Shown: in pieces, positions 7,719 to 19,872 of the stretch
Layout of the letters: each line of letters starts with the position of its first letter
How positions within the stretch are numbered: the stretch's first letter is position 1
Origin: an uncultured Mediterraneibacter sp.
Lineage (GTDB): Bacteria; Bacillota; Clostridia; Lachnospirales; Lachnospiraceae
Assembly: GCA_944383695.1 (NCBI GenBank)
Contig: CALWQP010000004.1
Location: 1 to 64,000, forward strand
Length of the DNA stretch: 64,000 nucleotides
Direction: 5' to 3'
Program-made: the position numbers and the translations under genes
The notes under the pieces: generated by a model
What the model was told of the DNA's origin: nothing
What the model saw: only the letters and a program-made list of their open reading frames with translations
Databases searched by the model: none

Positions 7719-8711
7719 ATGACAGAGATTCAAGGCAGTGTTTATCTGCGGGAGAGTATGGCAATGGGTGAGAGTATGTATAGCGCGCAGCGCGTGATCA
7801 ATGAAGTGGAGAAGGCGGTTGTAGGGAAGCGGGATGTTCTGACAAAGATCATGACCGCGATACTTGCGGGCGGGCATATCCTGATAGAGGATATCCCGGG
7901 AACAGGGAAGACGACCATGGCGCTGGCGTTTTCGAGGACAATGGGACTGAAGGTAAAAAGGGTCCAGTTCACTCCGGACGTGCTTCCGGCTGATCTGACC
8001 GGATTTACGATCTATCAGAAGGAAACAGGCAAATTCGTCTATCAGCCGGGGGCAGCCATCTGCAACCTGCTCCTGGCTGACGAGATCAACCGGACGTCTC
8101 CGAAGACGCAGTCAGCGCTCCTGGAAGTAATGGAGGAAAAGCAGGTGACCGTGGACGGGGTCACACACAGGACAGGAGAGCCGTTTATCGTCATCGCTAC
8201 AGAGAATCCGGCAGGTTCAGCAGGAACGCAGCTTCTCCCGGAATCCCAGCTGGACCGGTTTATGATCTGCGTCAGCATGGGCTATCCTACTGTGGAGGAA
8301 GAGATGGAGATATTGAAACGAGACCAGAAAAAAGGATCGATCAGCGTGGAGATGGAACCGGTCCTCGACGCGGCACAGCTTCTTGCCATGCGCTCGGAGG
8401 TATCGGAGATATTTGTGCATGAACGCATTTACCGGTATATCGCGGAGCTGGCAAAGGCGACCAGGGAGAATGAGTGGACGGAGCTGGGGATCAGTCCGAG
8501 AGGGACTGTGGCGCTGACGGCAATGGCAAAGGCGTGTGCATGGATGAAAGGGAGAGCTTATGTGATTCCTGCGGATGTGCAGGAAGTATTCCCATGTGTG
8601 GCGGGCCACAGGCTCTTTCTGAATATGAAGGCAAAGGTGGGGCGTATCCGGGTAGATGAACTGATCCGGCAGACGCTGGAGAATGTCCCTGCTCCGGCGC
8701 TTAGAGGGTGA
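7719..8711 (+). CDS. MoxR family AAA+ ATPase
   Basis: AAA+ ATPase of 330 residues of the MoxR/RavA branch. Walker A is DIPGTGKTT near residue 57, Walker B LLADEINR near 118, sensor 1 ATENPAG near 155, and the C-terminal lid domain contains SPRGTVAL. MoxR ATPases act as chaperones that mature or insert partner proteins. The ribosome binding site before 7719 is weak, and internal ATG codons at 7758, 7764 and 7776 are possible true starts. The gene overlaps the DUF58 gene (GTGA) and with the transglutaminase gene forms the widespread MoxR-DUF58-transglutaminase operon. Confidence 0.9.
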   Translation: MTEIQGSVYLRESMAMGESMYSAQRVINEVEKAVVGKRDVLTKIMTAILAGGHILIEDIPGTGKTTMALAFSRTMGLKVKRVQFTPDVLPADLTGFTIYQKETGKFVYQPGAAICNLLLADEINRTSPKTQSALLEVMEEKQVTVDGVTHRTGEPFIVIATENPAGSAGTQLLPESQLDRFMICVSMGYPTVEEEMEILKRDQKKGSISVEMEPVLDAAQLLAMRSEVSEIFVHERIYRYIAELAKATRENEWTELGISPRGTVALTAMAKACAWMKGRAYVIPADVQEVFPCVAGHRLFLNMKAKVGRIRVDELIRQTLENVPAPALRG

Positions 8712-9772
8712 CGGTCATGATAAAGAGGCTGGCAGGGTATCTTGTCCTGCTGCTTGCGGCGGCATACTTGTATTTTATGTATAATGAGACGGTCATTTCG
8801 GGAATCCTTGTGTTCCTCATCCTGTATCTGCCGGCGTCAGCACTGTATCTGATCCTGATACAAGGCAAGATAGACGCAGATCTGGGACGAGTCCCGGCCA
8901 TGGGGGAAGCGGAAAAAAAGATCCGTGCAGGGGCAGTTGTAAGAAACAGGGCCCGCATGATGAGCATCCGTTATGAAGTGTTCCTCACATTGGGAAATAT
9001 CCACGATAAGAAGCGGAAAAAGAGAAAGTATGCAGGCTCTGTCCCCGCAGGTGGTGAAGAGACTCTGTGGTGTGAATTTGAGACAGGGCGGTGCGGCAGT
9101 ATTGAGGTGAGGATCGATACCATCAGGGTCTATGACTTTCTCGGTATTTTCTTCCTGCGTAAGAAAGTGAAGAAAAGGGCATCTGTAAAGATACTGCCTC
9201 AGTTCAGCCTGATGCCTGTGGAGATTACAAGAAAGACAAGAGAGTTTCAGGCGGAAGCGGAAGAGTATTCCGGGGAGAAAAGGGGAGACGACCCTTCAGA
9301 AATCTACCAGATAAGAGAATACCGGGTCATGGATTCTCTAAAGGACATTCATTGGAAATTAAGCGTCAAAGAGGAAGAACTGATGGTAAAGGAGAGGGGA
9401 TTTCCTCTGGGATGTACTGTCTTGATCTGGTTCGATGTAAGGGCAGGGAAAGTGTCTGCAGAAGGATTCTCAAAGATGGTCGAGAGGGCGGCCTCCCTGT
9501 CAGTTACCCTGGCAGAAGAGAAATGTATTCATATGGCAGCCTGGTATGAAGAGAAGAACGAGCGTATCGTGAAGTGGCGGGTGCGGGATGAGGAAAGCGC
9601 CTGCAGTATGATCTGGCGGCTTCTTGATCTGGAGCCATGCAGGGATATAAAAAAGAGAGACGCCTGCTATGAGGATACCTTTAAGGGCCAGGAGTTCAGC
9701 AGTATCGTGATCATAGACGGCGCGGGGAAGATATGGAAAGACGGCGAAGCGCCAGAGCTGCTCCGGCTGTGA
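8708..9772 (+). CDS. DUF58 domain-containing membrane protein
   Basis: Protein of 354 residues with two N-terminal transmembrane helices (about 8-26 and 29-48), a beta-rich middle part and the DUF58 core near residues 195-240, where GDDPSEIYQIREYRVMD and IHWKLS are recognisable. The C-terminal part should have a VWA-like fold (VLIWFDV near residue 240), though the usual DxSxS is not intact. The GTG at 8708 overlaps the moxR stop. An ATG at 8717 is an alternative. Partner proteins of MoxR ATPases are typically of this kind. Cellular role is unknown; a link to envelope or extracellular protein maturation is inferred from the operon. Confidence 0.85.
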   Translation: MTVMIKRLAGYLVLLLAAAYLYFMYNETVISGILVFLILYLPASALYLILIQGKIDADLGRVPAMGEAEKKIRAGAVVRNRARMMSIRYEVFLTLGNIHDKKRKKRKYAGSVPAGGEETLWCEFETGRCGSIEVRIDTIRVYDFLGIFFLRKKVKKRASVKILPQFSLMPVEITRKTREFQAEAEEYSGEKRGDDPSEIYQIREYRVMDSLKDIHWKLSVKEEELMVKERGFPLGCTVLIWFDVRAGKVSAEGFSKMVERAASLSVTLAEEKCIHMAAWYEEKNERIVKWRVRDEESACSMIWRLLDLEPCRDIKKRDACYEDTFKGQEFSSIVIIDGAGKIWKDGEAPELLRL

Positions 9773-9808
9773 GACAGATGTGGCAGATAAGTGAAAAGGG
9801 GTGAAGGA

Positions 9809-11899
9809 ATGGACAGAAAAAGTCCGGGGATAACAATATACCGGAAAGCACCCGGGGGAAAAACCGGGAGTAAGGAGCGCTTGTCCGAAGGGATTCTCTT
9901 TTTCGTTGCTGTTTCCTTTCTTGGGACGGTATGGTGGAATACATTCCTTTCCGTGTTTTTCCCGGGAGCGGATGGCAGATGGCTGTATGGGAGTCTTGTC
10001 ATTGTGACGTTTGGGCTTACATTCCTTATATGCCGCGCTGGAGGCTGGACAGTGCTCCCTGTCTTTCTGGTGTCGGGGGTTTTTCTCTGGAGAAACAGGG
10101 AGTCAGTAGAAAGTCTGTTTTTTCAGGGCAGCAGCCCGGATACACGACTTGCAGGAGTGATGGCGGCTGTGCTGACAATTCCTGTGCTGGTATTGTGGAT
10201 ATTCGTCATTCGTTCCGGAAAAGCAAAGACAGTGGCGGGCGCCGCGGCGGCGGCCCCTTTCATCGCAGCGGCATGCGCAGGTTATTTTCCCTCATTCAGA
10301 GCTTCGTGGCTTCTTCTATTTGCGGGCGTGATGTACTATGTTGCGGGAGCTTTGGGGAAAATGCCGTTTTTGAAGAAAGTGCTGTCCCTTGTCATAGCGG
10401 CAGGATGTTTTGCTCTCCTCGCAGGGATTTCTGTTTTTGCAGGGAGTTATCTGGATACCGGGCGGGAGGTGGAAGGCAGCTTCTACCAGATAGCACGTGA
10501 GACGCTCCGCACAGATTTTGTGGGAGGGATTGAGAGGCTGATGCAGAGGGAAGCCAGAGAGGCCCCTGATCCGGAGAGAGCAGATGAAGTTCAGGAGGAA
10601 ATGGAGCAGGAACAGCAGGAAGAGGCTGGACTGGCAGCGGAAGAGGAACCGCAGACGCCGGAAGCAGCAGGCGATGGCCCGGCAGGGACAGAGGGGAGTA
10701 TGGACCGTCTGAAAGAAATCAGCTCCTTTGAGCCCGATCCCCTGGCCCATTCCTCAGTGATTGTTTTGCAGGAAAAGCCGCGTAATACTGTGTACGTGGC
10801 GCAGCGGACCGGAATTGCTTATACCGGGGACACATGGGAAGAAGGAGAAGATCAGGGAGTGTTTCTTCCCGAAGAATATCTGACATATCCTGAGGGACTG
10901 GATCAGCTTGAGGAACTGTGCCGGGACTGGGAGATAAGTTCCTACAATGCCGTGGGACATCAGATTGACGAAGCCTTTGCCTCCCTGGCAGTTTATGATA
11001 CAGATCCGGGACCTACTCCTGCATCAGAGGACTTTGCAGAATATTTTCTGTTTGAAAACCATAAAGGGTTCTGTGTCCATTTTGCCACCGCGGCTGCGCT
11101 TCTCTACCGCATGTGCGGCTATCCTTCGGCATATGTGGAAGGGTATGCAGTGCCGGCATCTGCCTTTTATCAGGCGGAGGACGGCTCCTGGCAGGCCTAT
11201 ATCGACGGCAGCATGGGGCATGCGTGGTGCCGGGTATACGATGAGGATGAGGGAGGCTGGGTGAACAGGGAACACACTCCGGCAGCTTCGGGGAGCGTGA
11301 CAGAAAAGATGTCTGAGGCAGAGCCCCGGACTGAGGCTGACCGTGGGGATAATATCATCCGGGGCCTGAGGACTGCGGCAGCAGTTCTTATCCTGCTTCT
11401 GTTCCTGGCAGGTGCATTTCTGCTCCAGGCAGCATTCAGGTGGAGAAAGCGCAGGGCAGGGATGGCGTATACTGCGGAAGGCAGTGGGATACCGGCAATG
11501 TACGATGCGGTCCTGAAGACGGCAAAGGCTGCCGGAGGCTCCGGGAAAGGCTCTGCGGACACATATGCGCGCGGCTCCGCAGACGGTCTGGGCATGGGGC
11601 GGCTGGATGCGCTGAAATCGAACTTCCCACAGATCAGCGGAGAAGAGTGGGATTGGTTCCATGAGCAGGTAATGCATACACTTTTCTATCACCCGGACAT
11701 CGGAAGGGAGGAATGGAAAAGGGCATACAGGCTGTACCGGAGATTCTCAGAGACCGCCAGGGCGCGGATGGGAGCAGGAAAACGCCTGATCTTCCGTTAC
11801 GTATACTGTCTGGATGTTTCTCCCCGGATGAAGACAAAGAAAAAGAAGAAAAACAGAAAAAGGAGAATACCAGACGATATGAAGATTTACAGAAACTGA
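9809..11899 (+). CDS. Membrane-bound transglutaminase-like protein
   Basis: Membrane protein of about 696 residues. The N-terminal third has five or six hydrophobic helices. A linker rich in Glu and Gln follows (about residues 245-300), then a transglutaminase-like domain with catalytic Cys near residue 421 in GFCVHFATAA, His near 470 in GHAWCRVY, and a following Asp-rich strand. One more helix lies near residue 525, and the cytoplasmic tail resembles the DUF4129-like ends of the family. ATG 9809 is preceded by a fair site (AGGGGTGAAGGA); GTG 9791 is an alternative start. It belongs to the MoxR-DUF58 operon. The substrate is unknown and the active site appears intact. Confidence 0.88.
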   Translation: MDRKSPGITIYRKAPGGKTGSKERLSEGILFFVAVSFLGTVWWNTFLSVFFPGADGRWLYGSLVIVTFGLTFLICRAGGWTVLPVFLVSGVFLWRNRESVESLFFQGSSPDTRLAGVMAAVLTIPVLVLWIFVIRSGKAKTVAGAAAAAPFIAAACAGYFPSFRASWLLLFAGVMYYVAGALGKMPFLKKVLSLVIAAGCFALLAGISVFAGSYLDTGREVEGSFYQIARETLRTDFVGGIERLMQREAREAPDPERADEVQEEMEQEQQEEAGLAAEEEPQTPEAAGDGPAGTEGSMDRLKEISSFEPDPLAHSSVIVLQEKPRNTVYVAQRTGIAYTGDTWEEGEDQGVFLPEEYLTYPEGLDQLEELCRDWEISSYNAVGHQIDEAFASLAVYDTDPGPTPASEDFAEYFLFENHKGFCVHFATAAALLYRMCGYPSAYVEGYAVPASAFYQAEDGSWQAYIDGSMGHAWCRVYDEDEGGWVNREHTPAASGSVTEKMSEAEPRTEADRGDNIIRGLRTAAAVLILLLFLAGAFLLQAAFRWRKRRAGMAYTAEGSGIPAMYDAVLKTAKAAGGSGKGSADTYARGSADGLGMGRLDALKSNFPQISGEEWDWFHEQVMHTLFYHPDIGREEWKRAYRLYRRFSETARARMGAGKRLIFRYVYCLDVSPRMKTKKKKKNRKRRIPDDMKIYRN

Positions 11900-11982: not shown

Positions 11983-12012
11983 TTGCAAGATGCTGTCGAA
12001 CAATGCTATAAT
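11983..12012 (+). promoter_or_regulatory. Promoter of the DUF5717 operon
   Basis: TTGCAA (11983-11988), 18 bp, TATAAT (12007-12012). It gives the DUF5717-DUF5716-TPR genes their own transcript, although read-through from the transglutaminase gene 161 bases upstream is possible. Confidence 0.6.
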
Positions 12013-12060: not shown

Positions 12061-15000
12061 GTGACTGATTTGAAAAATAAGATCAAGCGATTTGCCAAAG
12101 GGGATTTTCACATCCCGCAGCCGGAAATCATCTTTCCTGAGACACGGATCATCATGCGTGTCGGCGAGGGAGAGAAATACAGAGGGAGCTTCTCGCTCCA
12201 GAACCAGGGGGAGGGGACCATACGAGGTCTTGTATATCCCTCCTCTTATCGTGTTCAGTGTGACGAGCAGGGTTTTGACGGCAATCCAGTCAATATTTAT
12301 TATACATATGACGGCAGCGGGCTTCTGCCCGGGCATGTGGAGCACGGCAAATTTACCATTGTCTGTAACGGCGGGGAATATGACGTGGCGTTTTCCGCGA
12401 TCATTGAAAAGCCGTTTGTGATGACGAGTTACGGCAAGATACAGAGCCTTGAAGATTTTAAAAAGCTTTCGTTCCGGGATGCGGCTGAGGCGGTGAAGCT
12501 GTTCCGCTCCAGAGATTTCTATGAAATCCTGAAATACGAGGATAAACGGATACAGGCGCTTTATGACAATATGCGTAAATGGGAGCTGGACCAGCAGGCG
12601 CTGGAAGAATTTCTTGTGGGGTGCAAGCAGAAAGAGAAGATATTCCTGACTCTGGAGGAAGAGAGCAGGGCCTTCATCTCTCTCTCAGAAGCCCGCAAGG
12701 AGACTTTTACAGTCAAGAAGAATACATGGGGTTATCTGGAGATCGATGTGCGGACGGAGGGAGAGTTCCTCTCAGTGGAGCATACGCGGGTCACCACAGA
12801 AGAGTTTATTGGAAACTCTTACCGTCTGGAATATTTCCTGGATGTTGAAAAGCTTCACGAAGGAAGCAATTTCGGCAGGGTCATCCTGGAGTCGCCTTAC
12901 GAGAGCCTGACATATGAGATCGTGGTGGAAAAGGATGTAAAAAGAGATGAGGAGCGGCGGGCCAATGACCGGGAGTTCGCCGGGATCATACGCAACTATT
13001 TGAAATATGAGGGCGGAAGGATGGAGCTTTCCGACTGGATAGAAGAGGCGGTGCGGCGGATCAGCCATTTAAGGGACATGGACCCGAAGAACGAATTCTA
13101 CCTGCTTTTCCATGCCCATATCTGCCTGATCGGAGGCAGGGCGGAAGAGGCGAAGTGGCTCCTTGAATCTTATAATTATAACAGGTTTGCCATAGGAAAA
13201 GATGTGGAACTGAGTTCGTATTATCTTTACCTGACTACATTTCTGTCCAGCGATACCATCGGACAGAGGAAGGTGGCAGAGGAGCTTTCTCGAACATTCA
13301 TGAAGCATCCGGACAGCTGGAAGATCCTGTGCATGCTGGTAGAGGTGGATTCGGAGTATAAGATCTACAGCGAGAGGCTGCGCGCCCTGGAGAAACAGTT
13401 TTATGAGGAAAAATCTCACAGCATCTGGTTCTATCTTCAGGCTTTCAAGTGTTTCCGGGATAAGAGTTCTTCCCTGAAGAAACTGGGAGAGTTCGAAGTG
13501 CGCGTCCTGCTCTTTGCGGTGAAGCATAAGCTGATGACAAGAGAGCTGGCGCTTTACACGGCGAATCTTGCCAGCCAGATGAAGGTGTTTGACAGACATC
13601 TCTATGATGTCCTTGTGCTTTCTTACAAAATATATCAGGAGGCGATGATCCTCACATCCATCTGCACTTTGCTGATCAAGGGAAACTGTGTGGACAGGAA
13701 ATATTTTAAATGGTATCAGAAGGCAGTGGAAGCAGAACTTAAGATCGCGCAGCTCTATGAGTATTACATGGCATCCGTTGTCCCGGGACAGTTCCATAAG
13801 GCGCTGCCCAGGTCTGTGTACCTGTATTTTATGCATGGCAATTCACTGGATTACCATAAATGCGCGTTCCTGTACGCCAACCTGATCACTTATGAAGATG
13901 AGGCGAGCGAGATCTATGCTCATTACAGAGATGAGATGGAAGCGTTTGCATGGAATCAGCTTGACCGCAGGAATGTGGACGAGCAGCTTCGTATCATATA
14001 CAAGCGCTTTGTCGTAGAATCAGCCATGAATCCGGAAAGGGTCAAGGCTCTGTACGATGTGTGCCATGCGTATTGGATCACAACAAAAGTCCCGGATATG
14101 AAATACATCCATGTGATCGCAGAGGATGGGACGATCACCCAGAAGGCGCCCTACACGGAGAACGGCGCCCGGGTATTTCTGTATGCCAAGACGGACCGGC
14201 TCGTGTGGGAAGCAAAGGACGGCAGGCATTACACGGATTCCATTCCTTATGAAAGCAAACGGCTCTTTTACGAGCTGCGCTACATGGATATGTGCAGGAA
14301 ATATATCAATGGGCTGCGCAGGAACAGGGAGGAAGAGGAAGCCCAGGAGCTGACGCTGGATGTGGTACGTGAGAAAGGCCTGGAGAACTATACGGAAGAA
14401 GAGATGCTGGGGCTTTGCAGCAGGACGATCAGGGAAAACAACTATGAAAATGATGATTTCCTCACGTATGTGTGTTTTGAACTGTTCAAAAAGCAGCAGT
14501 ATGACAAAGTGATCCTGACCTATCTGGCCAACTATTACTGCGGCGCTACCCCGGACATGAAGGTGCTCTGGAGGGAGGCAAGGGATTATGAGATACACAC
14601 CCATAAACTTGCGGAGCGGATTCTCACCCAGATGCTTTTCTCGGAGGAACTCTTCCAGGAGGCGCAGATTTTTGAACAGTACTATGCAGAAGGAGCTTAT
14701 TTCCGCCTGCAGCAGGCATATCTGGCCTATGTGTCCAGGGAGTATGTGGTTGAGGAGAGGAAGATCGGGCGCAGTGTGATCGACATCATCTGCCGCGAAT
14801 ATGAAAAAGGGGAGGACACGATCGATATCTGCAAGATTGCTGTGCTCAAATATTATTCCGGCAGGGAGTATAATGCGCAGACACGCAGGGCACTGAAGAA
14901 ATTCCTTCAGGAGTTGTGCGCGAAGCAGATCTATTTTCCATTTTTCCTTTCTTACGAAAAGGACTGGCTGATCGAGCAGCAGCTATGGGATAAGACGCTG

Positions 15001-15363
15001 ATCGAGTACAAGGGCCAGAAGGGCAGCAGGGTCATGCTCTATTATCAGCTCCAGAAAGGCGGAGAGGAGCCGGCGGATTATTCTACGGAGATCCTGACTC
15101 CCATGTACGAGAATCTCTATGTGAAGAAATTCGTGCTCTTTGCCAATGAGAAGCTGAAATACTATTTTAAAGAGACCATTGACGGAAATTCCTACCGCAG
15201 TGATAAAGAGACGTGTGTAAGGGAAACAGAGCCCGGAGAACAGGGCAGATACGGAAGGCTGAATGACATCCTTACAGAGTCCGGAGTCAAGCAGCGCAGG
15301 AGAAAGATGCAGGAATACGCGCTGGAGGATGCGGCGGCAGTCCATATGTTCACACAGGAATAA
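12061..15363 (+). CDS. DUF5717 protein: Ig-like domains plus helical solenoid
   Basis: Large soluble protein of 1100 residues, recognisable as DUF5717, a family I know only from Lachnospiraceae and relatives. It begins with a GTG. Residues about 25-120 look like a beta-sandwich of the type LxNxGxGxIxGxV...FxGN...LxxGxxxGxFxIxxNGGxY. A second, more diverged copy lies at about 215-300. The remaining 750 residues are almost entirely helical and rich in Tyr, Leu and charged residues, as in TPR-like solenoids. No signal peptide or membrane helix is visible. It leads an operon with an Hsp70-like DUF5716 protein and a TPR protein. A scaffold or client-binding partner role is inferred. Confidence 0.8.
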   Translation: MTDLKNKIKRFAKGDFHIPQPEIIFPETRIIMRVGEGEKYRGSFSLQNQGEGTIRGLVYPSSYRVQCDEQGFDGNPVNIYYTYDGSGLLPGHVEHGKFTIVCNGGEYDVAFSAIIEKPFVMTSYGKIQSLEDFKKLSFRDAAEAVKLFRSRDFYEILKYEDKRIQALYDNMRKWELDQQALEEFLVGCKQKEKIFLTLEEESRAFISLSEARKETFTVKKNTWGYLEIDVRTEGEFLSVEHTRVTTEEFIGNSYRLEYFLDVEKLHEGSNFGRVILESPYESLTYEIVVEKDVKRDEERRANDREFAGIIRNYLKYEGGRMELSDWIEEAVRRISHLRDMDPKNEFYLLFHAHICLIGGRAEEAKWLLESYNYNRFAIGKDVELSSYYLYLTTFLSSDTIGQRKVAEELSRTFMKHPDSWKILCMLVEVDSEYKIYSERLRALEKQFYEEKSHSIWFYLQAFKCFRDKSSSLKKLGEFEVRVLLFAVKHKLMTRELALYTANLASQMKVFDRHLYDVLVLSYKIYQEAMILTSICTLLIKGNCVDRKYFKWYQKAVEAELKIAQLYEYYMASVVPGQFHKALPRSVYLYFMHGNSLDYHKCAFLYANLITYEDEASEIYAHYRDEMEAFAWNQLDRRNVDEQLRIIYKRFVVESAMNPERVKALYDVCHAYWITTKVPDMKYIHVIAEDGTITQKAPYTENGARVFLYAKTDRLVWEAKDGRHYTDSIPYESKRLFYELRYMDMCRKYINGLRRNREEEEAQELTLDVVREKGLENYTEEEMLGLCSRTIRENNYENDDFLTYVCFELFKKQQYDKVILTYLANYYCGATPDMKVLWREARDYEIHTHKLAERILTQMLFSEELFQEAQIFEQYYAEGAYFRLQQAYLAYVSREYVVEERKIGRSVIDIICREYEKGEDTIDICKIAVLKYYSGREYNAQTRRALKKFLQELCAKQIYFPFFLSYEKDWLIEQQLWDKTLIEYKGQKGSRVMLYYQLQKGGEEPADYSTEILTPMYENLYVKKFVLFANEKLKYYFKETIDGNSYRSDKETCVRETEPGEQGRYGRLNDILTESGVKQRRRKMQEYALEDAAAVHMFTQE

Positions 15364-15378
15364 GGAGGGTGTCTTTCC

Positions 15379-16662
15379 ATGGGACAAGGCAGTATCATAG
15401 GTTATGAAATAAATGAGAAGACATGCCAGATCAGTTTTTACAACGATCAGGAGCTGGAGCCGGACACGCTTGAGGTGGATTCCGACAACTATCAGATTCC
15501 CCTGATCATCGGAAAACTTCGGGATACATGGGCATACGGCAAGGAGGCAAAACGTCTTGTCACCATAAAGGAAGGTTTTACGGTCACAAGACTTTTGAGC
15601 AAGAGTCTTGCAGGGGACAAGATCGAATTTGGGGAAGAGACATACGACGCGGTCTGGCTTCTCTCACAGTTCATCCAGATGTCTCTTCAGTCTTTCCCAG
15701 AAATTGAAGGGATCGTGTTTACCGTGCCGGTGCTGACCGAGGAACTGGCGCAGATGCTCAGGGGGATTGCCGTGCGCATGAATATTGACAAGCGGCATAT
15801 CTTTATCCAGGATTATAAAGAAAGCTTCTGCAATTATCTGTTCTATCAGCCAAAGGAGCTGTGGCAGTATGACGCGGCGCTCTTCTGCTGTGACCGGAAT
15901 GAGATCCGGGCCTATATGCTCCGGCGTCTCCGCCCGGGACTGGGAGGCGGCAGGACCACCTTTGTGACAGTGGACGAGGTGGCCAGCGCGCATATGAAAG
16001 AACTGGCGGCGGTTTATCCGGTGCTGAATGAGGACAAGGCGAAAGAGGCGGATGCCATGTTCTGTAAGTTTATCGAGAGTGTCTTTGACAAGCGTATCGT
16101 ATCTTCGGTATTTCTTACAGGAGAAGGCTTCGAGAATAACTGGTATCCAAAGGCTCTGAGGGTACTCTGCAACGGACGGCGCGCTTTTATCGGGAACAAC
16201 CTGTACAGCAAGGGCGCGTGTTACACAGCTTACCGGAAGCTTTTCATGCATATCGAGAATCCGGTCTATCTGTCAGAGGACAAGCTGACAGACCAGATCA
16301 CGGTGAATATGAGAGTGGACGGTCAGGAAATGTGGTATCCCATCGTTTCATGGGGAGCCCACTGGTATGAGTCGAACAACCAGTGGGAAGTCCTTATGGA
16401 AGATGTGAAGGATATTGAATTCCACATCGAATCCCTGATCCAGGGGAATGTGAGGACGGAGAAGATTTCTCTTGAAAAATTCCCCAGGCGCGCGGAATAT
16501 TCCATGCGTCTCCAGATCGAGACACTGTTTCTGGATGAAAAGACATGTAAGATCACTGTGCGGGACGCGGGATTTGGCGATTTCTTCCCGCCCACGGATT
16601 TCCATGCGGAGAAGATCATACATTTAGGAGGCAATGATGGGAAATTTAATTCTTTGTCATGA
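15379..16662 (+). CDS. DUF5716 protein, probable Hsp70/actin-fold pseudo-ATPase
   Basis: Soluble protein of 427 residues. By eye it follows the order of an Hsp70 nucleotide-binding domain: an N-terminal strand-turn IIGYEINEKT in the phosphate-1 position. Residues about 114-155 (FTVPVLTEELAQMLR then IFIQDYKESFCNYLF) align with the DnaK ITVPAYFNDAQRQ...INEPTAAALAY region. The segment VFLTGEGFENN then GNNLYSKGACY aligns with the adenosine-binding VGG...PDEAVAIGA region. The glycine-rich phosphate loops are replaced (ALFCCDRNEI where Hsp70 has a DLGGGT loop), so ATP hydrolysis is doubtful. A C-terminal beta-rich part follows. The alignment is my inference; the Pfam label alone gives no function. 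Confidence 0.75.
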   Translation: MGQGSIIGYEINEKTCQISFYNDQELEPDTLEVDSDNYQIPLIIGKLRDTWAYGKEAKRLVTIKEGFTVTRLLSKSLAGDKIEFGEETYDAVWLLSQFIQMSLQSFPEIEGIVFTVPVLTEELAQMLRGIAVRMNIDKRHIFIQDYKESFCNYLFYQPKELWQYDAALFCCDRNEIRAYMLRRLRPGLGGGRTTFVTVDEVASAHMKELAAVYPVLNEDKAKEADAMFCKFIESVFDKRIVSSVFLTGEGFENNWYPKALRVLCNGRRAFIGNNLYSKGACYTAYRKLFMHIENPVYLSEDKLTDQITVNMRVDGQEMWYPIVSWGAHWYESNNQWEVLMEDVKDIEFHIESLIQGNVRTEKISLEKFPRRAEYSMRLQIETLFLDEKTCKITVRDAGFGDFFPPTDFHAEKIIHLGGNDGKFNSLS

Positions 16663-17404
16663 CAGACACGCGGCACATCCTTACGAGGTCACGAGGATAC
16701 ACAGCAGGATCTTCACCATCGAGGAGCTTTGCTATTATCTGTGTAACAATCTCTATCTCATCGACTACACGATCATGAACGAACAGCTCTGTGACTGGCT
16801 TGACGAAGAACTGGGAATGGAGGGCCTGGCGTCAGACCTGAGAGATGTGCTCCGGCTGCGCGGTTCCGTGGAGAAGTTTGTCCTGACGATCCTGAAGGCT
16901 TCGCGCATATACAGGGAGCCGGAGATGATACGCATCCAGAATGTACTGGAGCATCTGAAGAACCAGAAGGATATCGAGCGTCAGAAATTCAAGGGGGATA
17001 ACCTGCTGGAGAGCGGGGAACTGGAGGAGGCGATCCTTGTGTACCAGTCCATCCTGAACGAGGAAAGAGATGAGACCGTGGATGATAAGTTTTACGGCAG
17101 GATCTACGCAGGGCTGGGAGCAGCATACGGAAGGCTCTTTCTATACCAGGAGGCGGCGCGCATGTACGACAGGGCTTACCAGATGTGCGGGGACAAGGCG
17201 CTCCTCAAACCGTATCTGTACGCATCGTATAAATATATGTCCCTAGAGGAATACCACATCCTTATCACAAAAAATGAAGAATATATGGAAATCAACGCGC
17301 AGATGAGGCAGGAGCTGGATGAGCTCAGGAAGAGCCTGCCTGTGGAGAACGATCCTTCCCTTCTAGAAAAGTGGAAGCGGCAGCACCGCAGAAGCCATAC
17401 TTAG
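16634..17404 (+). CDS. TPR-containing protein of the DUF5717 operon
   Basis: Soluble protein of 256 residues. The N-terminal 100 residues are unusual and rich in Cys, Tyr and Leu. From about residue 115 to 215 there are TPR-like helix pairs (GDNLLESGELEEAILVYQ; LGAAYGRLFLYQEAARMY), and the tail is a charged helix. AGGAGG precedes two adjacent ATG codons (16634 and 16637), and either may be used. It starts 29 bases inside the DUF5716 gene, implying translational coupling and balanced amounts. TPR proteins commonly serve as Hsp70 co-chaperones, which fits the neighbour; that role is inference. Confidence 0.78.
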   Translation: MMGNLILCHDRHAAHPYEVTRIHSRIFTIEELCYYLCNNLYLIDYTIMNEQLCDWLDEELGMEGLASDLRDVLRLRGSVEKFVLTILKASRIYREPEMIRIQNVLEHLKNQKDIERQKFKGDNLLESGELEEAILVYQSILNEERDETVDDKFYGRIYAGLGAAYGRLFLYQEAARMYDRAYQMCGDKALLKPYLYASYKYMSLEEYHILITKNEEYMEINAQMRQELDELRKSLPVENDPSLLEKWKRQHRRSHT

Positions 17405-17490: not shown

Positions 17491-17548
17491 CAGTGACTCA
17501 TTGGTAGAGAAAAAAAGTAAAGCTGGATTTCCGGCGATGGAGGAAATT

Positions 17549-18364
17549 ATGAAGAGAAGAGTATTAAGTATGCTGCTTTGCGCAGGGATTGTTGTTACCA
17601 TGCTTGCAGGCTGTGGTTCAAAAGGAAGTTCCGGGTCCGGTGGGGACGCCGCTGAGACGGGCGATATGGATTATGTAAAAGAGAAAGGAACCCTGGTCGT
17701 GGGCATCACGAACTTTGAGCCCATGGACTACAAGGATGCGAGCGGCGAGTGGGTCGGCTTCGACGCGGACCTTGCGAGAGAATTTGCAGAAAGCCTTGGC
17801 GTTGAGGTGGAGTTCGTCGAGATCGACTGGGAAAATAAGATACTGGAGCTGGATGGGAAGACGATCGACTGTGTGTGGAATGGTATGACCCTGACTCCGG
17901 AAGTGACCAGTGCGATGGACTGCACGGACGCTTATCTTGAGAATGCCCAGGTCGTTGTAGTCCCCTCCGATGTGGCTGACCAGTATCAGGATGAGGACAG
18001 CCTTGCGGATTTAAGCTTTGCCGCTGAGGCAGGGAGCGCAGGTGAGGAAGAGCTTGAGGCGAGAGAGCTGAACGTTACCCCGGTGACAGCACAGGCGGAC
18101 GCCCTTATGGAAGTGGCGGCAGGGACTTCTGACGCGGCAGTGATCGATCTGCTCATGGCAGCGGCAATGATCGGAGAGGGAACGAGCTATTCTGACCTTA
18201 CATACACGGTACACCTGAACAGTGAGGAGTACGGCGTAGGATTCAGGAAAGGTTCGGATCTGACAGCAGAGCTGAATGATTTCTTTGCCAAAGCGTATGA
18301 AGACGGAAGCATCCGGGAGCTGGCGGAGAAATACGGAGTACAGGCTGCGCTGATCGAACAGTAA
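17549..18364 (+). CDS. Polar amino acid ABC transporter binding lipoprotein
   Basis: Extracellular substrate-binding protein of 271 residues of the SBP_bac_3 (PAAT) family. It has a lipoprotein signal peptide with lipobox LAGC near residue 20, then a Gly/Ser linker. The binding domain contains GTLVVGITNFEPMDY, the hinge segment WVGFDADLAREFAESLGV and the VWNGMTLTPE segment. ATG 17549 has GGAGG five bases away; longer versions would bury the signal peptide. It is the first gene of an importer with one permease and one ATPase. Polar amino acids such as glutamine, glutamate or cystine are typical ligands. The exact one is not readable. Confidence 0.9.
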   Translation: MKRRVLSMLLCAGIVVTMLAGCGSKGSSGSGGDAAETGDMDYVKEKGTLVVGITNFEPMDYKDASGEWVGFDADLAREFAESLGVEVEFVEIDWENKILELDGKTIDCVWNGMTLTPEVTSAMDCTDAYLENAQVVVVPSDVADQYQDEDSLADLSFAAEAGSAGEEELEARELNVTPVTAQADALMEVAAGTSDAAVIDLLMAAAMIGEGTSYSDLTYTVHLNSEEYGVGFRKGSDLTAELNDFFAKAYEDGSIRELAEKYGVQAALIEQ

Positions 18365-18393
18365 CATAAAAAATTTACAGACGGAGATATGTC

Positions 18394-19074
18394 ATGGAAT
18401 TTTCAGAACAATTTCCAATCGTTGTACAGGCGTTAAATGTGGGATTCCTGCAGACCTTAAAATTATTTTTTGTGACCCTTTTAGGAGCAATCCCACTGGG
18501 GCTGATCATTTCGTTTGGGTCTATGTCCCGCTTTAAGCCCTTAAGTTTCATTACAAAGATCATCGTATGGATCATCAGGGGGACTCCTCTGATGATCCAG
18601 CTTTTGATCGTCTATTTCATGCCAGGGCTGATGGGCAACAATATATGGGGAGGCGGCGAGAGCGGACGTTTTCTCGCGGCTTCGGTTGCTTTTATCTTTA
18701 ATTACGCCTGCTATTTTTCGGAAATCTACCGGGGCGGCATTCAGGGGGTTCCGGCAGGCCAGGAGGAGGCCGGGCTCGTGCTCGGCATGACAAAGACGCA
18801 GATATTTTTTAAGGTCAAACTGCTTCAGATGATCAAGAGGATCGTGCCGCCCATGTCCAATGAGATCATCACACTGGTGAAAGATACTTCCCTTTCCCGC
18901 ATCATTGCGCTTCAGGAGGTCATATGGGCAGGGCAGTCCTTCATGAAGGGCAATATGGGGATCGCAGGAGTGATCTGGCCGCTGTTCTTTACGGCAGTGT
19001 ACTATCTGATCTTTAACGGCATCCTGACGGTCCTTTTGGGACGTCTTGAGAAAAAACTGGAATATTTCAGGTAG
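18394..19074 (+). CDS. Amino acid ABC transporter permease
   Basis: HisM/GlnP-type inner membrane permease of 226 residues with about five transmembrane helices. The conserved membrane motif RGTPLMIQLLIVYF lies near residue 65, and the EAA loop that contacts the ATPase (QEEAGLVLGMTKTQIFFKVKLLQ) near residue 130. One permease gene suggests a homodimeric channel. It lies between the binding protein (29 bases away) and the ATPase gene (12 bases away), so all three share the promoter at 17439. Confidence 0.93.
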   Translation: MEFSEQFPIVVQALNVGFLQTLKLFFVTLLGAIPLGLIISFGSMSRFKPLSFITKIIVWIIRGTPLMIQLLIVYFMPGLMGNNIWGGGESGRFLAASVAFIFNYACYFSEIYRGGIQGVPAGQEEAGLVLGMTKTQIFFKVKLLQMIKRIVPPMSNEIITLVKDTSLSRIIALQEVIWAGQSFMKGNMGIAGVIWPLFFTAVYYLIFNGILTVLLGRLEKKLEYFR

Positions 19075-19086
19075 GAGGCGGAACAT

Positions 19087-19872
19087 ATGGCAATCTTGGA
19101 AGTACAGCATGTAAGTAAGAGCTTTGGGAACACGGAAGTGCTGAAAGATATCAGCTTTTCTCTGGAAAAAGGAAAAGTATTGTCCCTCATCGGTTCGTCC
19201 GGAAGCGGGAAGACAACGCTGCTCCGCTGTCTGAATTTTCTTGAAAGGCCGGACGGAGGCGTGATCCGCGTCAACGGTGAGATGCTGTTCGATGCGGCTG
19301 ATCCGGCGACGATGCAGGAGGGCGAGATAAGAAGAAAACGGCTTCACTTCGGACTGGTGTTCCAGTCTTTTAACCTCTTTCCGCAGTATACGGCGCTTCA
19401 GAACGTAATGCTGGCGAAGGAGCTTCTGGCAAAGGAGAAGCCGGATTATAAATCAAAGAAAAAGGAAATCCATGCACAGATCGAGGCTGAGGCAAAGAAC
19501 TTTCTGGATCAGATGGGGCTGTCAGACCGGATGGACAATTATCCCCATCAGCTTTCCGGTGGTCAGTGCCAGAGGGTTGCGATCGCCAGGGCGCTGGCGC
19601 TGAAACCGGATATCCTCTGTTTTGACGAACCGACTTCCGCGCTCGATCCGGAGCTTACCGGGGAAGTGCTGAAAGTGATCAAAGGTCTGGCAGATCAGGA
19701 GACGACAATGATCATCGTCACCCATGAGATGGCGTTTGCGCGGGATGTATCCAGTCAGGTGATCTTTATGGACGGCGGGTGCATCATGGAACAGGGCACG
19801 CCGGAGGAAGTGTTCGAGCATCCGAAGGAAGAACGGACAAAGCAGTTTTTATCACGATTTACGAATCAATAA
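19087..19872 (+). CDS. Amino acid ABC transporter ATP-binding protein
   Basis: GlnQ/HisP-type ATPase of 261 residues. Walker [10 protein letters not shown] lies at about 36-44, Q-loop QSFNLFPQ near 95, signature LSGGQCQR near 155, and Walker [12 protein letters not shown] near 178; the H-loop sits in VTHEMAF. It completes the three-gene importer. The next gene, purF, starts 13 bases after its stop with only a ribosome binding site between them, so purF is almost surely on the same message. Confidence 0.94.

Follow-up and report, generated by a model that had tools for sequence, protein, structure and literature searches.

A window of 64,000 nucleotides from an uncultured Mediterraneibacter sp. 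(contig CALWQP010000004.1, positions 1-64,000) contains three adjoining genes, for a DUF5717 protein, a DUF5716 protein and a tetratricopeptide repeat (TPR) protein, which form a tight, conserved operon. Judged from profile comparison and a predicted structure, DUF5716 is a homologue of Hsp70 over the nucleotide-binding domain (NBD) and the beta part of the substrate-binding domain (SBD-beta), with a shortened actin-fold NBD and no lid; by its sequence, it is a pseudo-Hsp70 with no working ATPase. We put at roughly 60% the probability that the operon encodes an ATP-independent, three-subunit chaperone or scaffold complex descended from a larger multi-Hsp70 machine.

A conserved three-gene operon

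A first-pass annotation had recognised DUF5717, DUF5716 and TPR genes here by eye, and three open reading frames (ORFs) on the same strand are found at those positions (Table 1). The first two genes are separated by 15 bases, and the third begins within the end of the second, with AGGAGG just upstream of ATGATG at its start; this arrangement, also noticed earlier, may reflect translational coupling. Among 80 loci kept from the 158 relatives found, 76 have the complete triad, and the overlap is preserved in all of these (29 bases in 52 loci, 26 bases in 24). Three of the four incomplete loci (L080, L084 and L088) stop at a contig end; in the fourth, L102, no TPR ORF was found. The three genes thus stay together in relatives, as expected of the linked set that had been proposed.

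The DUF5717 protein matches PF18984 (E 1.4e-214, 715 bits) and PF18983 (E 1.1e-100, 337.2 bits), against a cut-off of 25. Its AlphaFold2 (AF2) model (mean predicted local distance difference test score, pLDDT, 81.8; predicted template modelling score, pTM, 0.45) agrees with the earlier description of two Ig-like domains and a helical solenoid: PapD/MSP/ASH-type beta domains are predicted at residues ~20-119 and ~188-293, followed by long helical repeats with a beta insert and by a C-terminal beta domain. The third protein has only a weak TPR match (TPR_12, 9e-4, below the Pfam cut-off). Its assignment is firmer because it aligns with a homologue in the full cluster described below (hhalign E 9.1e-18, probability 99.1), for which TPR matches reach 2.2e-21 in locus L116.

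DUF5716 as a homologue of Hsp70

The DUF5716 protein is a clear member of PF18980 (E 6.7e-101, 337.6 bits; cut-off 34.7). The by-eye map had laid it along the Hsp70 NBD, pairing its TVP with ITVP, DYKESFCNYLF with INEPTAAALAY, and GEGF..GACYTA with VGGST..GA, and these pairings are borne out by alignment. The structural and profile comparisons proposed at that stage both point to Hsp70, since the DUF5716 model finds DnaK with Foldseek (E 2e-13) and profile-profile comparison with Hsp70 gives E 5.8e-13. An NBD of the actin/Hsp70 type is therefore predicted, in which many columns of residues 244-284 are invariant within the family. The NBD appears to be followed by an SBD-beta, supported by a profile alignment that reaches residue 419 and by a shared segment, with moderate model confidence in this part. 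There is no SBD-alpha lid, as the chain stops shortly beyond SBD-beta.

Loss of the ATPase residues and of subdomain IIB

Residues were compared in an alignment of 103 sequences: 6 DnaK, 1 second DnaK, 1 HscC, 15 DUF5716 and, from a seven-gene cluster in related families, 19 Hsp70A, 21 Hsp70B, 17 Hsp70C and 23 degenerate Hsp70. The numbers K70, E171, T199 and D201 are those of E. coli DnaK. In all 57 cluster Hsp70A, B and C sequences, D8, T11, T12, K70, E171, D194, G196-198, T199 and D201 are kept. Among the 15 DUF5716 sequences, D8 persists in 12 (E in the other three), D194 in six, G197 in three and D201 in one; T11, T12, K70, E171, G196, G198 and T199 are found in none. K270 is kept in three, S274 in one and G341 in all 15. 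The 23 degenerate Hsp70s retain D8 (23), D194 (22) and G196 (19), with T11, E171 and G197 in four each, and T12, K70, G198, T199 and D201 in none. The K70 column is hydrophobic or aromatic in 22 of the 23 degenerate Hsp70s and in 14 of the 15 DUF5716 sequences, with one gap in each group. From these counts, the degenerate Hsp70 of the full cluster would already be a pseudo-ATPase, and DUF5716 would have gone further.

Neither the phosphate-1 DxGTTN loop nor the phosphate-2 DxGGGT loop is present in DUF5716, so the earlier remark that its phosphate loops are not canonical was correct. The Hsp70-like system that had been envisaged thus keeps its predicted Hsp70 fold and, by sequence, loses its ATPase, with the catalytic positions gone and the IIB region deleted. 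The D194-G341 interval, in which IIB lies, measures 60-78 residues in the 15 DUF5716 sequences, 134-152 in the 23 degenerate Hsp70s and 143 in the six DnaKs, a deletion of about 70 residues carrying the IIB lobe. Subdomain IIB is described as the place at which exchange factors open the nucleotide cleft (PMC10825016).

Ratios of non-synonymous to synonymous substitution (dN/dS) against relatives are 0.010-0.062 for DUF5716 (8 pairs); with 3 pairs each, DUF5717 gives 0.023-0.034 and the TPR gene 0.029-0.041. These values are rough, because dS in these pairs (1.05-2.17) lies near or above saturation. As far as such ratios go, they show strong purifying selection on all three proteins, which argues that the residue loss in DUF5716 is not decay.

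A seven-gene cluster in related families

PF18980 also matches larger degenerate Hsp70 ORFs (472-565 aa) in other families of the order. In a survey of 23 genomes outside the three-gene form, with gene classes assigned by purpose-built profiles, 15 carry a full seven-gene cluster at one locus. Its order is DUF5717 (one or two ORFs), Hsp70A (~560 aa), a GrpE-ending helical protein, the degenerate Hsp70, Hsp70B (~546 aa), Hsp70C with a C-terminal von Willebrand factor A (vWA) domain, and the TPR protein. The three-protein set of the first-pass annotation is thus real as a conserved triad, and it looks like a reduced form of this cluster, which has a GrpE of its own and which a single window could not reveal.

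Pfam scans of cluster proteins covered L116, L111 and three proteins of L112. The GrpE domain at the end of the helical protein matches PF01025 (E 1.4e-14 in L116). In Hsp70C (L116:8599-10674 and relatives), the vWA domain replaces the lid, and its DTTGS motif, resembling a metal ion-dependent adhesion site, is present in 7 of 7 aligned sequences. N13 is kept in 56 of the 57 cluster Hsp70s. The degenerate Hsp70 of L116 matches PF00012 (1.7e-16), and that of L111 has no PF00012 match up to E 1.

The cluster is not uniform. In L111 (genome G039; L111:3205-6384), Hsp70C and the TPR gene are each in two reading frames. The parts are apart, or not found at the locus, in G040, G063, G070 and G224; G040 has them at three places, L150 (end of DUF5717, Hsp70A), L119 (GrpE, degenerate Hsp70) and L122 (Hsp70B, Hsp70C, TPR). 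The loci of G044, G047 and G053 are interrupted by contig ends. G051 (L121:1817-6916) has DUF5717 and the degenerate Hsp70 only, with no other cluster-type Hsp70 in the genome by PF00012, and is perhaps a second, separate reduction.

Ten further loci with the short DUF5716, nine from the window's family and one labelled f8, all show the triad and none of the other cluster genes within the sequence read. A PF00012 search of the window genome picks out only DnaK and two partial hits, whose frames (334 and 367 aa) we judge to be MreB-sized; no further cluster-type Hsp70 and no second GrpE were found there beside DnaK and one GrpE. All 8 full-cluster genomes searched have a second GrpE above the Pfam cut-off, as does one of the 19 others (G216; the match in G262 is below threshold).

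Distribution and history

The window's family (f1 in the genome samples) was taken to be Lachnospiraceae, as the closest relatives with names are Mediterraneibacter and further members of that family. In a sample of 246 genomes of the order, PF18980 occurs in 117 and PF18983 in 121. By hand counts from the match lists, in which related genomes are not independent, DUF5716 and DUF5717 occur together in 115 genomes, DUF5716 alone in 2, DUF5717 alone in 6 and neither in 123. Each of the 33 genomes from the window's family has both. In the first sample, DUF5716 was found in 36 of 37 genomes of this family, and the sole miss, G005, is 75% complete; there is one match per genome in both samples. HSP90 was considered as a functional link and set aside: it is found in 214 of the 246 genomes, among them every one of the 33 from the family, and the system is both present and absent among HSP90 hits as well as among misses.

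Outside the order, PF18980 was found in 0 of 294 phylum genomes and 0 of 234 class genomes, denominators that take unlisted rows to belong to the more distant kin, an assumption suggested by how the rows are sorted. With the vWA part of Hsp70C, the only matches there are weak (at E<=0.001, in 9 genomes of 167 and in 5 of 164; the best scores 65 bits), so that no full cluster is seen beyond the order, although a very diverged one could escape.

A maximum-likelihood tree of 64 rows, made by a quick search, unites the 15 DUF5716 rows in one group (support by the Shimodaira-Hasegawa-like approximate likelihood ratio test, SH-aLRT, 99) and links this group to the degenerate Hsp70 of G039 (98). Single groups are also formed by Hsp70A (SH-aLRT 100), Hsp70B (97) and Hsp70C (100), and not by the 13 degenerate rows. 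A D.G[FL]G[ED] motif near the C-terminus is shared by 12 of 15 DUF5716 sequences, 19 of 23 degenerate Hsp70s and 7 of 21 Hsp70Bs, and is found in 0 of 44 DnaK, HscC, Hsp70A and Hsp70C sequences. These results are most simply read as an older seven-gene form, from which the window's family lost the three motif-complete Hsp70s together with GrpE while keeping the scaffold, the pseudo-Hsp70 and the TPR protein.

A proposed mechanism and its alternatives

The tight operon and overlapping start suggest that DUF5717, DUF5716 and the TPR protein bind each other in fixed proportion. DUF5717 would serve as a long scaffold. The pseudo-Hsp70 would act as a fixed-state module which, with no ATP cycle, presents its SBD-beta to a client or to a segment of a partner, like Ssz1 in the yeast ribosome-associated complex (RAC), and the TPR protein would be an adaptor to a client or to the cell's own DnaK. 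Nascent chains, DnaK or a particular assembly may be the client. The fourth gene of the cluster would already have been a pseudo-ATPase before reduction to the triad. More tentatively, the triad might be a family-wide, ATP-free chaperone or assembly complex of the core genome, derived from Hsp70 and independently arisen as a counterpart of RAC/Ssz1, which discarded three motif-complete Hsp70s, GrpE and most of the IIB lobe gripped by GrpE, and whose three remaining parts are under extreme constraint.

Several observations weigh against this interpretation. Complex formation is suggested by gene order. PF00012 is not listed for the window DUF5716 up to E 1, its identity to DnaK is 11% across 404 columns, and a PDB sequence-profile search gave nothing useful (3 matches, E 1.2-2.3), so that profile-profile comparison and a model were needed for this deep relation. 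Model quality is mediocre for DUF5716 (AF2; mean pLDDT 64.5, pTM 0.51), with much of residues 157-272 and 291-320 below pLDDT 50, and the placement of SBD-beta therefore depends mainly on profile alignment. Unlike in RAC, scans of 7 window proteins and 20 cluster proteins list no J-domain family, two TPR proteins being judged on their best 25 families and the rest of the genome not having been searched. At the adenine site of the cluster Hsp70s, E267 is changed in 40 of 40 Hsp70A and B sequences and R345 in 57 of 57 Hsp70A, B and C sequences, so their nucleotide handling may differ from that of DnaK. The degenerate Hsp70 of L121 (G051) keeps an IIB-length segment (137) with no cluster GrpE at the locus, and thus loss of IIB and loss of GrpE need not coincide. 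Lastly, the tree does not prove the direction of evolution, because it is unrooted, comes from a quick search and has several long branches flagged.

The main rival to an ATP-independent complex is that DUF5716 regulates the cell's own DnaK, as a co-chaperone of the Ssz1/Hsp110 kind positioned by DUF5717 and the TPR protein, with the ATP cycle residing in another protein. The DnaK and single GrpE kept in the window genome fit this, as do the RAC/Ssz1 entries among the closest structures. We nevertheless regard it as rather unlikely, given the lack of a listed J-domain family for the scanned cluster proteins and the lack of linkage, as dnaK lies on another contig of the window genome.

A scaffold for sporulation or envelope assembly, rather than a chaperone, is improbable. 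It might serve the MoxR, DUF58 and transglutaminase genes directly 5' of the triad, and a coiled-coil protein with two transmembrane (TM) stretches stands next to the TPR gene in some relatives. However, of 65 related loci with sufficient flank, just 18 have MoxR and DUF58 genes upstream, so a function by way of these neighbours was rejected, and a search of the window genome did not find the coiled-coil protein. Sporulation was likewise rejected, because 18 of the 33 family genomes have no SpoIVA match and all 33 have DUF5716 and DUF5717; two of the matches in the other 15 are marginal (6.6e-5 and 5.0e-4).

It is less probable still that the triad is a biological-conflict (defence) system with Hsp70, GrpE and TPR proteins as a threshold switch, although GAP1-N2 systems, according to Kaur et al. 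(PMC7159879), may include HSP70, GrpE, another HSP70 in reduced form and FNIII proteins fused to DnaJ or TPR. Weak, partial PADLOC matches occur in 5 of 7 cluster proteins: Hsp70A, B and C to PDC-M61B (best 5.5e-9), the TPR protein to PDC-M71B (2e-9) and the membrane coiled-coil protein to JetC (4.7e-5). PADLOC matches none of the three window proteins, and a defence function was therefore not retained. Defence genes are usually patchy and fast-evolving, which counts against this explanation, as the triad is near-universal in its family, with one match per genome, and its dN/dS is 0.01-0.06. Nor do the scans of 7 window proteins and 20 cluster proteins (from L116, L111 and part of L112) list a TRAFAC GTPase family.

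Least probable of all is the first-pass view of DUF5716 as a nucleotide-driven Hsp70 with unusual phosphate loops: an acidic residue at position 8, the invariant G341, the occasional D194 and a GIDLG retained in more distant family members speak for it, but K70, E171 and T199 are lost throughout, D201, K270 and S274 nearly so, the IIB region is deleted and the lid is absent.

Features and neighbouring genes

Table 1. Coordinates of the operon, its parts and associated features (window positions unless a locus is named).
Feature	Position	Strand	Description and basis
DUF5717 protein	12061..15363	+	1100 aa, GTG start; predicted scaffold; ORF list, Pfam, model
DUF5716 pseudo-Hsp70 (by sequence)	15379..16662	+	427 aa; ORF list, Pfam, structure and profile comparison
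TPR protein	16634..17404	+	256 aa; start 29 bases inside DUF5716
Decayed phosphate-1 loop	15394..15435	+	residues 6-19; IIGYEINEKTCQIS where IIGIDLGTTNSCVA is expected; alignment
DYKESFCNYLF segment	15811..15843	+	residues 145-155; aligned to DnaK INEPTAAALAY (E171 region)
Adenosine-site segment	16108..16230	+	residues 244-284; VFLTGEGFENNW..GNNLYSKGACYTA, aligned to VLLVGGSTRIP..NPDECVALGA
SBD-beta-like C-terminal domain	16270..16632	+	residues ~298-418; ISLEKFPRRAEYSMRLQIETLFLDEKTCKITVRDAGFG; profile alignment
Candidate sigma-70-like promoter	11983..12012	+	TTGCAA-18-TATAAT, TG before; upstream of DUF5717; weak evidence
Coiled-coil TM-like protein ORFs	L151:4937-6130, L128:5551-6978, L129:4261-7113, L125:4692-5852, L116:11938-13146, L111:2099-3238		adjoin the TPR gene

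The promoter is a weak candidate, because a scan of the region gave 8 sigma-70-like sites against 6.5 expected. Directly 5' of the triad (7719-11899) are genes for a MoxR AAA+ ATPase, a DUF58-like protein (a weak assignment, below the Pfam cut-off) and a membrane protein with a transglutaminase core. On the 3' side (17501-19872) is an ABC transporter of the amino-acid type (binding protein, permease and ATPase, named by eye), with purF and purB beyond it. At this place in other genera, the closest match to the transporter often reaches only 29-55% identity.

The coiled-coil protein with two hydrophobic, TM-like stretches adjoins the TPR gene in six loci (Table 1); some of the ten short-DUF5716 loci have it. 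Of the 27 genomes searched for it, 17 gave a match, one of them marginal (G046, 9.8e-4), and neither the window genome nor four same-genus genomes did. Its gene is apart from the cluster in G059, G074, G081, G140 and G054, and occurs without a cluster in G057. As it is often unlinked, and was not found in the window genome, it was left out of the core as an eighth component. In L129, its ORF of 950 aa continues into what by eye resembles the start of a glutamyl-tRNA synthetase, which looks like an odd fusion or an assembly matter.

Comparison with known systems

The open-access papers searched gave no description of the triad or of the seven-gene cluster, in keeping with the first-pass opinion that the set was undescribed, and Pfam knows the DUF5716 and DUF5717 families by number only. 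These two family names turned up in a single, unrelated paper, and a paper on the Hsp70s of Myxococcus (PMC8265645) came up as relevant to the cluster. The cluster is the nearest relative of the triad: the two share the scaffold, a pseudo-Hsp70 of the same group, the TPR protein and their relative order, whereas the cluster adds three motif-bearing Hsp70s (one with vWA and DTTGS) and the GrpE-ending helical protein, none of which is at the window locus. DnaK-DnaJ-GrpE resembles these systems in fold and domain order, and in the GrpE domain of the cluster. It differs in that DUF5716 lacks the ATPase residues, most of IIB and the lid, and no J-domain family is listed among the scanned cluster proteins.

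Two kinds of conflict system are similar in part. GAP1-N2 systems of the HSP70 kind, described mainly in actinobacteria and firmicutes, include HSP70, GrpE, a second HSP70 without a peptide-binding domain and fusions of beta-repeats with DnaJ or TPR (Kaur et al. 2020, PMC7159879); they differ in their TRAFAC GTPase, unmatched in the proteins scanned here, and in that the triad is near-universal in its family and not patchy. The Hsp70-like proteins of CoCoNuT systems (CnuD, or fused to McrB) are likewise reported (PMC11090510) to have an NBD and SBD with predicted poor ATP hydrolysis, together with helical repeats, but they belong to McrBC-type restriction systems with nucleases. No McrB, McrC or nuclease family passed the Pfam cut-off in the same scanned window and cluster proteins.

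By analogy, the best precedent for the proposed mechanism of DUF5716 is Ssz1, and RAC entries stand at ranks 3, 7, 12, 16 and 21 of the DUF5716 structure search. Yeast Ssz1 is described as binding ATP without hydrolysing it, with a complete SBD-beta and no lid, and as part of a fixed complex (PMC7083937). Both would thus be Hsp70s with a non-hydrolysing NBD, an SBD-beta and no SBD-alpha lid. They differ in that Ssz1 can still bind ATP and has a J-domain protein as its partner, whereas DUF5716 has lost its phosphate loops and most of IIB, and its gene partners code for a TPR protein and a PapD/ASH-solenoid protein.

The comparison offers a first concrete identity for three uncharacterised genes in nearly all sampled Lachnospiraceae, which are major gut bacteria. 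It also brings to light a seven-gene cluster, so far undescribed, in which four Hsp70s, one of them fused to vWA, are accompanied by an exchange-factor domain of the cluster's own. The full and stripped forms together would provide a natural experiment on Hsp70 function without ATP, for which yeast Ssz1 is the precedent.

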